DNA of 21,517 bases from a virus, in the IMG/VR virus record IMGVR_UViG_3300025769_000998, positions 1 to 21,517 of that record; one strand, written 5' to 3'. Position numbers and translations under genes: made by a program. Of the stretch, positions 4,480-12,375 are shown in pieces. How positions within the stretch are numbered: the stretch's first letter is position 1; the number at the start of each line of letters is the position of its first letter. The notes under the pieces are model-generated. The model was not told where the DNA came from, did not search any database, and worked only from the letters and a program-made list of their open reading frames with translations.

Positions 4480-5192
4480 TGGGTAAGCGTAAGGTTCTGA
4501 TCGACGGTGACATTGTGGCCTATCGGTCAGCCTTTGCTACTCAAGACTTGTTCCCAAAGGATGCAGAAGAGAAAGCTGAGATCCTTCTTGACTACATCTT
4601 AGAAGAAACACTGGAGTTCCCTACCCCAGATCAATACGAGATCTATCTTACGGGGTCAGGGAACTTTCGACATCAAATAGCAAAGTCATACGAGTATAAA
4701 GGTAACCGTAAGTCAGCAGAGAAACCTATACACCTGTACCATATCCGACAATACATGGTAGATAAGTTTGATGCTATAGTGAGTGAAGGAGAAGAAGCTG
4801 ATGACCTTATAGCAATAGAAGCAACAAGACTTGGACCTGATACTGTCGTTGCCTCAATAGACAAAGATATGTTACAGATACCTTGTCACCACTTTAACTT
4901 TGGTAAGAATGAGTGGAAAACAGTAGATGACTGGGCAGGACTACAGTTCTTCTACAACCAGATCTTAACAGGCGATAGGGCTGACAACATAATTGGTTTA
5001 TATCGTGTGGGGCCAGTTAAAGCTACAAAGATGTTAAGTGAGGCTAAGACTGAAAAGGACTTGTGGGAAGCCTGTGTTAAAGCCTATGACGGTGATGTAG
5101 ATAGGGTAATAGAGAATGCTAGACTACTATGGCTTAGACGTAAAGAGGGCGAGATATGGCAACCACCAGTGAACGTAGAAGACACGCAATAA
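4479..5192 (+). CDS. 5'-3' exonuclease (T7 gp6/FEN-like)
   Basis: A 237-residue metal-dependent nuclease of the FEN/PIN type, which in T7-like phages removes RNA primers and degrades host DNA. The active-site acids are in place: D9/D11 in LIDGDIVAYR, E107-D108-D109 in EEADDLIA, D128/D130 in SIDKDML, and D166/D169 in LTGDRADN. The last is followed by a GLYRVGPVKATKML helix-hairpin-like DNA-binding turn. YKGNRK at 73-78 is the conserved basic patch. Its 3' end overlaps the resolvase gene by 37 bases. Confidence 0.9.
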   Translation: MGKRKVLIDGDIVAYRSAFATQDLFPKDAEEKAEILLDYILEETLEFPTPDQYEIYLTGSGNFRHQIAKSYEYKGNRKSAEKPIHLYHIRQYMVDKFDAIVSEGEEADDLIAIEATRLGPDTVVASIDKDMLQIPCHHFNFGKNEWKTVDDWAGLQFFYNQILTGDRADNIIGLYRVGPVKATKMLSEAKTEKDLWEACVKAYDGDVDRVIENARLLWLRRKEGEIWQPPVNVEDTQ

Positions 5193-5557
5193 AGAATGGC
5201 TACAGATCTGGTTTAGAGGATGACATAGCTAAGGATCTTAAGGACAGGGGTGTAGAGTTTGAATATGAGAAGTTAAAGGTACGGTGGCAGCTTCTTGAGA
5301 ACAAGACTTACACTCCTGACTTTAAACTGCCTAATGGTATTATCATAGAATCTAAAGGTAGGTTTGTACAAGCTGACCGTAAGAAGCACTTAATCATACA
5401 AGATCAGCATCCATTTCTTGACATAAGGTTTGTCTTTTCTAATTCTAAGGCTAAGTTATACAAAGGTGCAAAGAGTACATATGGGGATTGGTGCAATAAG
5501 CATGGGTTCTTGTACGCAGATAAAAGGATACCCGACGAGTGGCTAACACAATCCTGA
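5156..5557 (+). CDS. Endonuclease I, Holliday-junction resolvase (T7 gp3-like)
   Basis: A 133-residue resolvase that cuts four-way junctions and branched DNA. The match to T7 gp3 is close along its length: GYRSGLED, YTPDF, IIESKG, DRKKHL, LDIRFVFS, KLYKG and DEWL occur in order. The active-site residues are E21, D55, E65 and K67, nearly the numbering of T7 (E20, D55, E65, K67). The ATG at 5156 has AGAGGG upstream and lies inside the exonuclease gene. The two nuclease genes are therefore coupled. The product probably helps resolve replicative concatemers and digest host DNA. Confidence 0.93.
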   Translation: MATTSERRRHAIKNGYRSGLEDDIAKDLKDRGVEFEYEKLKVRWQLLENKTYTPDFKLPNGIIIESKGRFVQADRKKHLIIQDQHPFLDIRFVFSNSKAKLYKGAKSTYGDWCNKHGFLYADKRIPDEWLTQS

Positions 5558-5784
5558 TTAAAGTCCATCGTGTTCTTGATGGCCCCTATGAAGATGAAGA
5601 TGGTAATTACTGGTTAAACTGTAGAGTAGAAGATCCCCAAGAAAGGAACCCAAGTAAGGTTATGTTCGATGAAGAGATCCCGTTTGTCTCCTTTGATGCA
5701 GCCTACGAGTTTCAGAGTCACTTCTACAGATCAATCGAACCCATACTAATAGAATTTGAAATGGATACCCGATATGACAGCTAA
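5539..5784 (+). CDS. Hypothetical 81-aa protein, related to the ORF at 11569-11739
   Basis: A small acidic protein of unknown function that begins with GTG at 5539, inside the resolvase gene, with AAAAGGA about ten bases upstream. I prefer this start because the N-terminal part (ILIKVHRVLDGPY) lines up with the other family member in this window. Shared features are GP, a W, CRV, PS, EE and the C-terminal block FDAAYEFQSHF (FDAAHEFESQW in the relative). This copy has about 20 extra C-terminal residues. No membrane segment or known catalytic motif is visible. Confidence 0.7.
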   Translation: MANTILIKVHRVLDGPYEDEDGNYWLNCRVEDPQERNPSKVMFDEEIPFVSFDAAYEFQSHFYRSIEPILIEFEMDTRYDS

Positions 5785-6550
5785 GACAGCAGTAGTATTC
5801 TCATGTGCTCACTCAGACCCCTCGACGGGAAATGAGCGTTTCGACTGGCTAGGGGAATTAATCTATGAGGTAAATCCTACCTACATAATTGACTTAGGTG
5901 ATGGTGCTGATATGCGCTCCCTTAACACCTTTGACACACGTTACCCAGAGGCTATCGTAAGTCAGAACTACGAACAGGACATCAACTGCTACAATGAGGC
6001 AATGGATCGTCTACGGAAGAAACCTAGCGAAAGAAAGTATAAGCGCCCATATTGGATTGGCTTTGAGGGGAACCATGAGAATAGAATCAAAAAAGCTATC
6101 GCACACGACCCAAGATTACAGGGAGACAAGTACGGGATTTCCTTCGGGCATCTTCAAACAGACCACTGGTTCGACGAATACCACGAATACACTAATAGCG
6201 CCCCCGCTATCGCTGACTATGATGGCGTTTCTTATGCTCACTTCTTTAGTAGTGGTAATTATGGTACAGCTATGTCTGGTTTACATCACGCTAATAGCCT
6301 ACTCGCCAATCGTAATCACAGTTCTACTTGTGGGCATAGCCATAAACGTGATCTTAAGTTTAAAGATGGCGCACACCCTAATGGGATTATCGGTTTGGTT
6401 GCGGGTTGCTACAAAGGCTCAGAAGAAACGTGGGCTGGACAGGCAAATAGAGATTGGTGGAAAGGTTGTGTAATCAAGCGTGAGATTAGCAACGGTATCT
6501 ATGAGCCTGAGTTTGTATCACTTAAGAGGTTAAAAGAATTGTATGGGTAA
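5774..6550 (+). CDS. Calcineurin-like metallophosphoesterase
   Basis: A 258-residue protein with the metallophosphoesterase layout: S-C11-A-H13 (normally DxH), LGDGAD with D43, GNHEN at 99-103, YAHF at 154-157 and CGHSHKRD at 186-193 (the GHxH motif). Such enzymes hydrolyse phosphodiesters or phosphomonoesters with two metals; phage members may act on nucleotides, DNA ends or other substrates. The substrate here cannot be read. The first metal-binding Asp appears to be Cys11, which is unusual. I chose ATG 5774, just before the first strand, over an in-frame TTG at 5756; it overlaps the upstream gene by 11 bases. The next gene overlaps its end by 8. Confidence 0.8.
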   Translation: MTAKTAVVFSCAHSDPSTGNERFDWLGELIYEVNPTYIIDLGDGADMRSLNTFDTRYPEAIVSQNYEQDINCYNEAMDRLRKKPSERKYKRPYWIGFEGNHENRIKKAIAHDPRLQGDKYGISFGHLQTDHWFDEYHEYTNSAPAIADYDGVSYAHFFSSGNYGTAMSGLHHANSLLANRNHSSTCGHSHKRDLKFKDGAHPNGIIGLVAGCYKGSEETWAGQANRDWWKGCVIKREISNGIYEPEFVSLKRLKELYG

Positions 6551-7091: not shown

Positions 7092-7426
7092 TGCTTACAG
7101 CGAAAGATATGAAAGACATGATTGATATGTACTCACAGTTTGTAGAAGACAAGATGATTACTAAGGGTCGGGAGCGTCTGATTGAGAATGCCCTTGGATT
7201 GACTGGCGAAGCTGGTGAGGTATCAGAGAAGATTAAGAAACTATTTCGTGACAACAGAATTGATGATGATGCAGTCTTAAGAGAATTAGGTGACGTACTG
7301 TTCTATACTGTAGCTCTATCTAATATCTTTGGTGGCAGCTTGATTAAGATCATTGAGTTGAACATGGAGAAGCTAAACGAGCGTGTAAAGAATGGTACAC
7401 TACAAGGATCAGGTGACAACCGATGA
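7091..7426 (+). CDS. MazG-type NTP pyrophosphohydrolase
   Basis: A 111-residue all-alpha protein with the MazG metal-binding pattern: E40-A-G-E43 in GLTGEAGEVSEKIKK and E65-L-G-D68 in ELGDVLFY. MazG-type enzymes hydrolyse NTPs or dNTPs to the monophosphate plus pyrophosphate. Marine phage copies have been proposed to clean the nucleotide pool or to alter the host stringent response. The length fits a single MazG domain. GGAAGG precedes the start, which overlaps the methyltransferase stop (TAATG). It leads a nucleotide-metabolism run with RNR, glutaredoxin and the DUF3310 protein. Confidence 0.88.
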   Translation: MLTAKDMKDMIDMYSQFVEDKMITKGRERLIENALGLTGEAGEVSEKIKKLFRDNRIDDDAVLRELGDVLFYTVALSNIFGGSLIKIIELNMEKLNERVKNGTLQGSGDNR

Positions 7427-7635
7427 GTAAGAAGAAGACTGGTATGTCATGGTTCTGGAGATATATAAACTATCTTGCGACATGGCGAACCCACAGAATA
7501 GCAATTAAACAGCTTAACCAACTAACAGATAAAGAGCTTGCAGATATTGGAATAGCTAGGGCTGACATTGACCGTATGGTCTGGCTAAAAGAAGATAAGA
7601 CTATGAGAGCGAGAGGAAAGCCTGACGATGAATAA
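7423..7635 (+). CDS. DUF1127 family protein (YjiS-like)
   Basis: A 70-residue basic protein. Residues 19-53 (ATWRTHRIAIKQLNQL, then TDKELADIGIARADI) match the DUF1127 pattern: an arginine-rich amphipathic helix followed by (T/D)D(R/K)ELADIG(I/L)xRxDI. In alphaproteobacteria, small DUF1127 proteins influence RNA turnover, sRNA maturation and phosphate or carbon stress responses. In a phage it could redirect host RNA metabolism, but that is inference. It starts in an ATGA overlap with MazG and overlaps the RNR gene by 8 bases. An internal ATG at 7444 is an alternative start. Confidence 0.85.
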   Translation: MSKKKTGMSWFWRYINYLATWRTHRIAIKQLNQLTDKELADIGIARADIDRMVWLKEDKTMRARGKPDDE

Positions 7636-9526
7636 TTACCTACCAACTGACTACCAGACTTTTATTGCTAAGTCTCGCTACGCTAAGTACATCGACGGTC
7701 AAGGCCGTGAGGATTGGGGTGATACAGTAGAACGCTACATGGATAATGTGGTACGTCCTAAAGCTGGTAACGATTCTTATGTCAATCAACTACGGGATGC
7801 CATCTTAAACCTAGAAGTTATGCCCTCTATGCGAGCTATGATGACTGCTGGACCAGCACTGGCCCGTGACAATACTGCTGGGTACAACTGTAGCTATCTA
7901 CCAGTAGATGATCCTAAAGCATTTGATGAAGCTATGTTTATCTTATTGTGTGGCACAGGTGTAGGCTTCTCAGTAGAGCGTCAGTTCATCCAGAAGCTAC
8001 CAGAGGTTCCTGAGCTATTTGAGAGCGACACAGTGATTGTAGTTAAAGATAGTAAAGAGGGTTGGGCTAAAGCGTTCCGTCAAGTCCTTGCGCTTCTCTG
8101 GGCTGGTGAGATCCCTAAGTGGGATGTATCTGCTGTACGCCCTGCTGGTGCTAGACTTAAGACCTTTGGTGGTAGAGCATCTGGCCCTGCACCTCTAGTT
8201 GAGTTGTTTAACTTTGCAGTTACAACATTCAAGGCTGCACAAGGGCGTAAGTTATCCTCTATTGAGTGCCATGACCTTATGTGCTTTATCGGTCAGATTG
8301 TTGTAGTTGGTGGTGTTCGTCGTAGTGCTATGATTAGCTTGTCTAACCTATCAGATGACCGTATGCGTCATGCTAAGTCAGGACAATGGTGGGAAACAGC
8401 AGCCCATCGTGCATTGGCTAATAACAGTGTGAGCTACACAGAGAAGCCTGACATGGAGACATTCATGCGTGAGTGGCTTGCATTAGTTGAAAGTAAGTCA
8501 GGTGAACGTGGTGTCTTTAATCGTCAGGCTAGTAAGGTACAGGCAGCTAAGAATGGACGTAGAGATCCCAACTATGAGTTTGGCACTAACCCCTGTAGCG
8601 AAATTATCTTACGACCAAACCAGTTCTGTAACCTGACAGAGGTTGTAGTACGAGCTACAGATACTATTGATGACTTAGAGCGTAAGGTACGCCTAGCTAC
8701 AATACTAGGCACTATCCAATCGTCTATGACTAAGTTTCCTTATCTACGAAAGATCTGGAACAAGAACACAGAAGAGGAGAGATTACTAGGTGTGTCTTTA
8801 ACAGGCATTATGGATAATAGATTAACGACCAGTCAAAATGCTGGCCTTGAGAAAACCCTAGAAAGGTTAAAAGATGTTGCAATATCTACGAATGCTGAGT
8901 GGGCTGAACGCCTTAACATCCCTGCTTCTGCTGCTATCAGTTGCGTTAAACCAAGTGGTACTGTCTCCCAACTTGTTGATTCTGCTAGTGGCATTCATGC
9001 TCGTCACAGCCCTTATTATGTTCGTACTGTGCGTGGAGATAACAAAGACCCGCTGACGAAGTTTATGATTGATAAGGGTGTACCTAACGAACCATGTGTT
9101 ATGAAGGGTGATACCACGACAGTCTTTAGCTTTCCCATCAAGTCACCAGAAGGGGCAGTCACTAGAAACGATATGACAGCCGTAGAGCAGCTAGAGACAT
9201 GGTTAATCTATCAGATGTCATGGTGTGAACATAAGCCCTCAGTGACGATCTCAGTACGTGATCATGAGTGGATGGAAGTGGGTGCCTTTGTCTACAAACA
9301 CTTTGATGAGATGTCAGGGGTGTCGTTCTTACCTCACTCAGATCATACTTATCAGCAAGCTCCATATCAGGATTGTACTAAAGAAGACTACGAAGAGTTA
9401 TTAGCTATTATGCCAAAGGCTATTAACTGGTCTGAACTTTCAGAATATGAGGATGAGGATAACACTGCTGGTAGTCAGACAATGGCTTGTAGTGGTGACA
9501 CTTGTGAAATAGTAGATCTAACATGA
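7628..9526 (+). CDS. nrdJ: Ribonucleotide reductase, class II (B12-dependent), monomeric type
   Basis: A 632-residue enzyme that reduces ribonucleotides to deoxyribonucleotides using adenosylcobalamin. N321-P-C323-S-E325 is the radical active site, and the redox pair is C88 (in AGYNCSYLP) and C334, exactly 11 residues after C323 as in Lactobacillus RTPR. The tail holds C621-SGDT-C626, the reducible pair that re-reduces the active site. VVVGGVRRSA at 226-235 and RPAGARLKTFGGRASG at 171-186 are further family motifs. It is about 100 residues shorter than Lactobacillus RTPR (739). GAGAGGAAA precedes the start. The glutaredoxin directly downstream is the likely electron donor. The host must supply or import cobalamin. 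Confidence 0.95.
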   Translation: MNNYLPTDYQTFIAKSRYAKYIDGQGREDWGDTVERYMDNVVRPKAGNDSYVNQLRDAILNLEVMPSMRAMMTAGPALARDNTAGYNCSYLPVDDPKAFDEAMFILLCGTGVGFSVERQFIQKLPEVPELFESDTVIVVKDSKEGWAKAFRQVLALLWAGEIPKWDVSAVRPAGARLKTFGGRASGPAPLVELFNFAVTTFKAAQGRKLSSIECHDLMCFIGQIVVVGGVRRSAMISLSNLSDDRMRHAKSGQWWETAAHRALANNSVSYTEKPDMETFMREWLALVESKSGERGVFNRQASKVQAAKNGRRDPNYEFGTNPCSEIILRPNQFCNLTEVVVRATDTIDDLERKVRLATILGTIQSSMTKFPYLRKIWNKNTEEERLLGVSLTGIMDNRLTTSQNAGLEKTLERLKDVAISTNAEWAERLNIPASAAISCVKPSGTVSQLVDSASGIHARHSPYYVRTVRGDNKDPLTKFMIDKGVPNEPCVMKGDTTTVFSFPIKSPEGAVTRNDMTAVEQLETWLIYQMSWCEHKPSVTISVRDHEWMEVGAFVYKHFDEMSGVSFLPHSDHTYQQAPYQDCTKEDYEELLAIMPKAINWSELSEYEDEDNTAGSQTMACSGDTCEIVDLT

Positions 9527-10002: not shown

Positions 10003-10160
10003 TAAGCCTAGATCAGTCAGTAGACTTAGTACACTTAGGTATTACACTCTACTTGGTCTGGAAGGTACATAAACTACAACAAGAGGTAGACTATGCTTAC
10101 TTTACACTAAGTAACCTACTAAAGTCTTTAACCAGTACATTTAAGGCAATGACACAATAG
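9999..10160 (+). CDS. Small single-pass membrane protein (53 aa)
   Basis: A short ORF that begins in an ATGA overlap with the DUF3310 gene, with GGAGAG seven bases before the start. It encodes 53 residues starting MISLDQSVDLVHLG. A hydrophobic stretch from about residue 8 to 21 (VDLVHLGITLYLVW) is followed by a basic-polar helix and a C-terminus ending FKAMTQ. It is the last gene of the right-going block, directly before the terminator hairpin. I do not recognise it; a small membrane-associated or early host-takeover protein is possible. Confidence 0.65.
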   Translation: MISLDQSVDLVHLGITLYLVWKVHKLQQEVDYAYFTLSNLLKSLTSTFKAMTQ

Positions 10161-10786: not shown

Positions 10787-11080
10787 TTATACCTCTACGT
10801 CTAGTATCTTACCTACATCTATAGGTGCTACAATCCTACCATTGGGGCTGTAGGCTAACTCAGCCATACTTCTCTGTCTGTTTAAGAGTTCTTCAGCCTT
10901 TTCTTGCCAGTACTTATCAAGTCTTATGGTAACTTCACTACGAGTAGCTGGCTCTACAACCTTTGGCTTATCAGCACTAACCTTAGCTGGGAGAATAGGT
11001 GCTGTAGTCACTGTAGTAGCTGTAAACTCAGGTATCTGGTACATCTGGAATGGGAAAGTACCTTTAGCTTCTAATCCCAT
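10787..11080 (-). CDS. Hypothetical soluble protein in the lysis region
   Basis: A 97-residue protein that I do not recognise. The N-terminal half is rich in Thr, Ala, Pro and Val (TATTVTTAPILPAK) and looks flexible. The C-terminal half has a charged helix (RLDKYWQEKAEELLNRQRS) followed by a short strand-rich tail ending VGKILDVEV. No membrane segment or signal peptide is evident. It is coupled by TAATG to the coiled-coil membrane protein upstream and by TAACATG to the two-TM protein downstream, so it is translated with the lysis cassette. Confidence 0.6.
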   Translation of the reverse strand: MGLEAKGTFPFQMYQIPEFTATTVTTAPILPAKVSADKPKVVEPATRSEVTIRLDKYWQEKAEELLNRQRSMAELAYSPNGRIVAPIDVGKILDVEV

Positions 11081-11523
11081 TATAACATCCCCTTTGATGA
11101 CATTATTATAAGTACAGCTATACCTGTTATAATAGACAACACAGTTACTGTACCCCCGATAACAACTACCTTCTCTACAACCTCTTGCTTACGGAGCCTC
11201 TCAGCAGCTTCTCTCTCTTTACGTTCTCTACGTGTCCTAGCTCTTATTTCTTGTAGCTCACCCCAAGCGGAGTAACCTCTGGTAGCTATCACAATGGCTC
11301 TGAGTTCTTCTTCAGCATCCTTAGCCTTCTGTAGTTTCACGAAAGTCTCCATACTGTTCTCATCATCACCTGAGAAGAGACTATTCTTTTTCTTATTGTG
11401 GTTGTTCCTTAGTTCATCGACACCATCAAAGAACTCACCTATTTGTTTAGTAACTGAGACAAGCTCTTTACCCGCACTAACAGCAGTCTTGACCGCAGCC
11501 AAAGCTGTAAATGGATCTACCAT
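11080..11523 (-). CDS. Coiled-coil protein with C-terminal membrane anchor
   Basis: A 147-residue protein. It begins MVDPFTALAAVKTAVSAGKE, continues with a helical region to about residue 110, including a strongly charged helix (RARTRRERKEREAAERLRKQ), and ends in one membrane segment at about 118-142 (VVVIGGTVTVLSIITGIAVLI). Proteins with this opening and a C-terminal anchor are common in marine phages next to lysis genes. The function is unknown; a spanin-like or holin-regulating role is possible. TAGGGG lies upstream of the start, and the stop overlaps the next start (TAATG). Confidence 0.65.
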   Translation of the reverse strand: MVDPFTALAAVKTAVSAGKELVSVTKQIGEFFDGVDELRNNHNKKKNSLFSGDDENSMETFVKLQKAKDAEEELRAIVIATRGYSAWGELQEIRARTRRERKEREAAERLRKQEVVEKVVVIGGTVTVLSIITGIAVLIIMSSKGML

Positions 11524-11568: not shown

Positions 11569-11739
11569 TTAACTCCACTGACTTTCAAACTCATGGGCTG
11601 CATCAAAAGTATCGAAACTTACTTCCTCAAGTGAAGGTCTTGAAGAAGTACTCTTGTGAACAACCCGACAAAGAATAAACCACTTGTCACCAACTTGCAT
11701 TGGGCCTTTGATTATTTCTACTAAGTGATAACTACTCAT
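11569..11739 (-). CDS. Small 56-aa protein, paralogue of the 5539-5784 product
   Basis: A short ORF of 56 codons starting MSSYHLVEIIKGPMQVG and ending EFESQWS. Its ATG at 11739 overlaps the stop of the coiled-coil membrane protein gene at 11732-11998 by 8 bases (ATGAGTAG), the same junction style as other genes here. It shares CRV, PS, EE and the block (S)FD(x)FDAAHEFESQW with the 81-residue protein of the opposite arm. This shared block argues that both are real genes. The function is unknown. The 45 bases between its stop and the next gene hold only that gene's ribosome site. Confidence 0.65.
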   Translation of the reverse strand: MSSYHLVEIIKGPMQVGDKWFILCRVVHKSTSSRPSLEEVSFDTFDAAHEFESQWS

Positions 11740-11998
11740 TAGCCATCTTTTCTACTGACTGTCGGATTGCTTTAATGTTCTCATCTATACGGGCCATAGA
11801 TACTGCTTGTCTTTGTGTAGCATCTTCTACGATAGACATCCTAGACTGTAGACGCATGATCTCTTCACCATTGCGTTCAATGTCTGCCATCATCATAGAT
11901 ACAGTCCACACAATAGCTCCTGCTTGAGCTATAAGACCAAAGATAAGGGTTATAGGGACACTCCTAGAGAGATGCCAATTATCTTCATCCTTGGTCAT
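11732..11998 (-). CDS. Membrane-anchored coiled-coil protein, possible inner spanin
   Basis: An 88-residue protein with a short cytoplasmic N-terminus, one membrane segment at about residues 15-38 (VPITLIFGLIAQAGAIVWTV) and a long helical tail (about 40-85) with heptad-like spacing (EEIMRLQSRMSIVEDATQRQ). An N-terminal anchor followed by a coiled coil, directly after the endolysin, fits an inner-membrane spanin subunit. No lipoprotein partner was found nested or next to it, so the call is tentative. It starts in an ATGA overlap with the endolysin gene. Confidence 0.6.
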   Translation of the reverse strand: MTKDEDNWHLSRSVPITLIFGLIAQAGAIVWTVSMMMADIERNGEEIMRLQSRMSIVEDATQRQAVSMARIDENIKAIRQSVEKMANE

Positions 11999-12375
11999 GC
12001 TGGGTAGACTTTACGATCAAGTTCAAAGTGAGGGGCATCATAGAAGCTCTTCCAGTCACCACCCCATACGATGGAAATGTCAAGCTCTTCTGCTGCATCC
12101 TTCATGGCTTCAGCCATAGTTTCAAACCTATCTAAGTCTTCCCAATCTACAGGCCAAGGAACCATGTCTACAGCATGGCCTGTGATATGTCTTGAGTTAA
12201 GTGTAGTTGACTTACCCTCTTTGAGTAACTGTCTTTGACGATCAATATGACGTATACCTTCGATGACTGTGAAGTCTACGTCAGTGATCTCTATTGCTCT
12301 CTTAACTACAGCTTGCATATCAGGGTGAACGCCTGACAAGTTCTGTAAGCTACGTGTTCCTAGTTTATATCCCAT
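11995..12375 (-). CDS. Endolysin, M15 family peptidase (L-Ala-D-Glu type)
   Basis: A 126-residue zinc peptidase that would cut peptidoglycan cross-peptides during lysis. S61-R-H63-I-T-G66-H-A68-V-D70 is the SxHxxGxAxD motif, giving zinc ligands H63 and D70; H116 in DAPHFEL is the third ligand. The EGIRHIDRQRQLL stretch before it is also conserved in phage M15 endolysins such as the T5-like group. There is no signal peptide, so export depends on a holin, and several small membrane proteins follow in the same operon. AAAGGG precedes the ATG at 12375. Confidence 0.92.
   Translation of the reverse strand: MGYKLGTRSLQNLSGVHPDMQAVVKRAIEITDVDFTVIEGIRHIDRQRQLLKEGKSTTLNSRHITGHAVDMVPWPVDWEDLDRFETMAEAMKDAAEELDISIVWGGDWKSFYDAPHFELDRKVYPA

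Follow-up and report, generated by a model that had tools for sequence, protein, structure and literature searches.

Two short acidic reading frames on opposite strands of a marine virus genome encode products with similar motifs, which raises the question of whether they belong to one protein family and, if so, what such a family might do for the phage. The DNA analysed, here called the window, is 21,517 bases long, comes from a single virus record and is a piece of a CRP-6-type marine roseophage genome. Identity to Roseobacter phage CRP-6 is 70-86% for the helicase, polymerase, ribonucleotide reductase, metallophosphoesterase and m116 of the window and lower for other genes, and the nearest relatives of the window are IMG/VR viral contigs. 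CRP-6 has been described as a distinct podovirus group of mosaic ancestry, and an endonuclease is listed among the genes common to Cobavirus (PMC6918029); the part of that paper available does not mention the small protein A. Replication genes occupy the + strand up to about position 10,160, beyond which the - strand carries lysis and tail genes. The features on which the analysis turns are the following.

5156-5557, + strand: endonuclease I (Phage_endo_I, PF05367), overlapping A by 19 nt
5539-5784, + strand: A, an acidic protein of 81 aa with a GTG start and a predicted β-β-β-α-β order, the core family member
5756-6550, + strand: metallophosphoesterase-like protein, overlapping the end of A, with a TTG start according to the ORF finder
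11080-11523, - strand: m147, 147 aa, phrog_32327 (unknown function), the gene after B
11569-11739, - strand: B, 56 aa, a shorter homologue of A with a predicted β-β-β-α order that lacks the last strand of A
11732-11998, - strand: m88, 88 aa, with a hydrophobic stretch at its N terminus and a stop that overlaps the start of B (ATGAGTAG)
11995-12375, - strand: M15 peptidase endolysin, a marker of the lysis block

Both ORFs were found at the positions and on the opposite strands given in the original prediction, and its placing of A in a replication and B in a lysis neighbourhood is right by the flanking genes: A is flanked by endonuclease I and the metallophosphoesterase, B by the M15 endolysin and m88 on one side and by m147 on the other. 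Elsewhere in the window, positions 7423-7635 encode a DUF1127 protein (PF06568) between MazG and ribonucleotide reductase, with homologues in most of the related loci that span this site, and a 158-aa gene at 1383-1859, in the helicase-polymerase interval, is matched in one compared locus only (L046). Judged by identity levels, the replication module is exchanged block-wise: against the window, L002, L028, L030 and others have helicase, polymerase, SSB and exonuclease at only 29-74% identity and RNR, MPE and A at 92-98%.

The blocks common to A and B are CRV, EE/DE before a strand, and FDAA(Y/H)EF(Q/E)S(H/Q)(F/W). A single BLASTP comparison gave 18 identities in 52 positions (29.3 bits, E 2e-7), and the Smith-Waterman score of 64 was reached by none of 20,000 shuffled versions of B (maximum 47); among 218 stop-to-stop ORFs in the window, the next best partner of A or B scores 42. 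When 31 window proteins were compared all-against-all, A-B was the top pair (E 2-3e-5; runner-up MPE-TMP, 7e-3), and B as query in its own genome found A at E 7.5e-5. The strongest test relied on HMMs made from A only, in which A and B are not used together. A model from 15 A orthologues, searched against all six-frame ORFs of the collected loci, recovered B with a score of 22 bits (E 9e-5), and the E<=1 list of 147 ORFs contained nothing but A and B copies; a 31-row A-only profile found B in contig G004 (E 1.1e-7) as the sole match there. B matches the A-family profile significantly, and hhalign of the A profile against B, a single comparison, gave a probability of 96% (E 3.4e-9). At the sequence level these comparisons establish A and B as true homologues in one undescribed phage protein family, in line with the relatedness originally proposed and with the profile comparison that was to decide it. 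A chance resemblance between two short ORFs could be argued from their length and from the single-sequence phmmer value, which was only about 1e-3 over all loci. The BLASTP result, the shuffles, the A-only profiles, the own-genome search and hhalign all contradict it, the A-only profile picking B and nothing else besides A orthologues, and we rejected it as having next to no probability.

The prediction that the family is undescribed also held in the collections searched. Neither A nor B matched Pfam, PHROGs, NCBIfam or PADLOC above chance level (best E 0.09-0.1), the 31 A rows reached at best E 0.032 against PHROGs, and B had no tblastn match at E<=10 in the phage collection. A scan of genome contigs for cellular relatives returned 32 stretches that fit a search pattern, none of which was confirmed. 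A literature search found no description of the A/B family, which is not proof of absence in print.

The predicted structures were compared element by element. The model of A (mean pLDDT 87) has strands at residues 3-18, 24-31 and 42-49, a helix at 52-64 and a strand at 69-75; that of B (pLDDT 88) has strands at 4-16, 19-28 and 35-42 and a helix at 45-55, after which the protein ends. The elements match save for the last strand of A, contrary to the differing folds that would have refuted the relation, an agreement that is partly built in because the alignment used for the B model included A rows. In the PDB, most of the structures nearest to the A model, the top-ranking ones included, are OB-folds: eS28, PriB, SSB, a DNA-ligase OB domain, PolC and AB5 toxin B subunits. 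No PDB structure neighbour of A reaches significance (lowest Foldseek E 0.28; highest Z 5.4, for 55 residues at 2.7 Å), the neighbours of the B model are mixed, and the 31-row A profile matched 0 of 177,635 PDB sequences at E<=10, SSB and PriB included. Measured against a closed five-stranded barrel with a helix between strands 3 and 4, A has four strands with the helix between 3 and 4, and B has three strands. The kind of structural neighbours found suggests that A may be OB-like. A search of predicted viral structures ranks A0A6J5LXP2 first for A (35% identity, E 2.8e-5), with the CRP-4 protein next (E 6.6e-3).

Orthologues of A, 27-100% identical to it, are present in viral contigs, and Roseobacter phages CRP-4, CRP-5, CRP-6 and CRP-13 have them too. 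An alignment of 31 rows has nine invariant columns (H10, V12, G15, P16, C28, E31, A55, Y56 and I66), and the protein is acidic in all 31, with net charges from -5 to -15. Within the main clade A is 94-100% identical, and its pN/pS of 0.105 (19 alleles, window clade) indicates that it is under strong purifying selection. In two loci (L067:1185-1427 and L068:6734-6976) the identity of A to the window, taken in 24-nt bins, falls to 71-83% in the greater part of the gene, with extremes of 58 and 96. This drop sets in at the start codon of A and lasts until about offset 216, which is the metallophosphoesterase ORF start, some 30 nt short of the A stop, and the bins flanking A remain at 88-100%, mostly over 90%. 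Because the drop is confined to A between near-identical flanks, A has been swapped as a unit in these loci. At another locus (L069:4273-4513) the metallophosphoesterase was not detected after A, which is directly followed by an MTase-like gene.

The position of A proved strict. Endonuclease I directly precedes A, with its end no more than 130 nt from the A ORF start, in 97 of the 98 A loci with distinct sequences. In the exception, L138, A lies directly after the gene for a 123-aa RusA-like Holliday junction resolvase (phrog_244, E 5.4e-15) for which BLASTP finds no similarity to endonuclease I. Thus, A stays beside a junction-cutting nuclease though the nuclease family differs, and it directly follows a junction resolvase in 98/98 loci. 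B does not; since it sits in the lysis block, it is a homologue and not an orthologue of A. Downstream of A in L138, before MazG, lies a 61-aa ORF (8077-8262). A is not universal beside endonuclease I: no significant match to A was found in the first 20,000 bases of SIO1, where a different, unannotated 61-aa ORF occupies the slot between endonuclease I and MazG (L147:19515-19697), nor around the endonuclease I genes of HMO-2011, ICP2, CRP-804, S-CBP3 and P-GSP1. The charges of A (-5 to -14) and of the upstream nuclease (+6 to +16) are opposite in 7/7 genomes. Beyond this constant sign, charge matching was dropped as evidence of pairing; across 15 representatives the correlation between the charge of A and that of endonuclease I was not significant (rho -0.40, p 0.14), and for the exonuclease (exo) used as a control rho was 0.53 (p 0.06, n 13).

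B is distributed differently. It occurs in 13 collected loci at 91-100% identity, always between m88 and m147 wherever the contig carries both flanks, and its ATG overlaps the m88 stop. Both flanks are present at >=90% identity in 16 loci, corresponding to 14 contigs, and B is found in 11 of these and absent from three (L030, L035 and L038), a ratio that overstates the frequency of B, as most B-bearing loci were collected by searching with B. Among the near-clade contigs spanning the site that were collected with A (n=5), B is present in L021 and L028 and missing from the same three, of which L030 and L035 do not differ across the site and may represent a single virus. Four more distant loci are likewise without B. 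L038 has a clean empty site, GGCTAATGA-AGACTAATTTCC, and the same two stretches flank B in L055. B forms a single-gene cassette, placed in the lysis block of a single CRP-6-type clade, and its pN/pS of 0.35 (7 alleles; few changes) speaks for a translated gene. Of the residues invariant in A it keeps G, P, C and A; H10, E31 and Y56 differ, the I66 region is missing, and the equivalent of V12 is uncertain as the first strand can be shifted by one residue.

How B arose bears on the proposal that the pair is an old duplication of an undescribed small family, of which the family stands and the duplication is less secure, since B is limited to one clade and one site and is missing from three close relatives. 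In a 25-row tree B has a branch length of 3.9 changes per column and lies beside other A lineages, away from the A of its own clade; forcing the two together is 5.0 log units worse and is not rejected (p-AU 0.172). A duplicate of the lineage's own A, relocated to the lysis block and then fast-diverging, would fit with the restriction of B to this clade, with the grouping that the tree test leaves standing and with the CRV common to both proteins. It sits poorly with the near-identity of A within the main clade against about 35% between A and B, with the unconstrained tree, and with the scores, B being no closer to its own A than to the A of other lineages; we regard this origin as possible, with the balance somewhat against it. 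The other origin, about which our odds are even, is that B entered as a cassette donated by an unsampled phage in which the A orthologue was already diverged and shortened. The precise presence or absence at one site between closely similar flanks argues for it, as does the unit exchange of A in L067 and L068, from which single-gene exchange occurs in the family; against it, no donor was found in the viral contig, phage or genome contig collections. On the sequences compared, acquisition fits equally well as duplication in this lineage.

As for function, the reading we put forward, at a probability of roughly 0.4, is that A is an OB-like accessory acting with the junction resolvase and that B is a shortened homologue, probably a late modulator and not a substitute for A. 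The strict gene order, the two resolvase families, the conservation and the charge underlie the first part, and the gene neighbourhood suggests an interaction of A with the resolvase. A, a small acidic protein encoded in the same operon as the nuclease, would restrain or target the basic resolvase, that is, hold it back or place it; its net charge of -11 speaks against DNA binding by A itself. B, diverged and part of the late lysis operon, may modulate A or the target of A late in infection. It is taken as a probable modulator and not a replacement because it lacks the last strand of A and its invariant H10, E31 and Y56; we speculate that such a late role is likelier than doing the job of A, if B has a related activity at all. 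That A is a dedicated OB-like subunit for endonuclease I and RusA-like resolvases, which a truncated late B counteracts at the onset of packaging and lysis, strikes us as quite improbable. Allele swapping and presence/absence variation are often seen in genes for host interaction, and the swapping of A and the patchy presence of B, together with small size and acidity, would suit anti-host or anti-defence DNA mimics whose function is unrelated to the adjoining nuclease. The location of A after a resolvase of either family at every locus and the strong purifying selection on A count against such mimics, and we consider them unlikely, though deserving of some weight.

That A is strictly paired with two junction resolvases offers a testable lead on how a phage controls an enzyme able to cut its own branched DNA, and B, as a cassette cleanly gained or lost, provides a natural presence/absence comparison. 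The fixed place of A beside phage junction resolvases is a more useful result than the A-B pair, which defines a small marine-roseophage protein family unnamed in the four family libraries searched. Should neither lead hold, what is left is a pair of small homologous phage genes of an ordinary kind; the finding is ordinary by most measures and moderately interesting as a lead.

Compared with known systems, A resembles the OB-fold proteins PriB, SSB, eS28 and the ligase OB domain, its weak structural neighbours, in its predicted β-β-β-α-β order, but it differs from them in having no sequence similarity or significant structure match, in being strongly acidic and in having one strand fewer, and B additionally lacks the last strand. 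In the complete genomes of Roseobacter phages, CRP-6 gp22, CRP-5 gp21, CRP-4 gp20 and CRP-13 gp27, each annotated 'hypothetical protein', are A orthologues directly after endonuclease I, and each genome has exactly this one family member, unlike the window with its second copy. The T7 gene 3 region has the same nuclease family as found here (PF05367), and in the T7-like Roseobacter phage CRP-804 a lysozyme follows endonuclease I, where the window has A.
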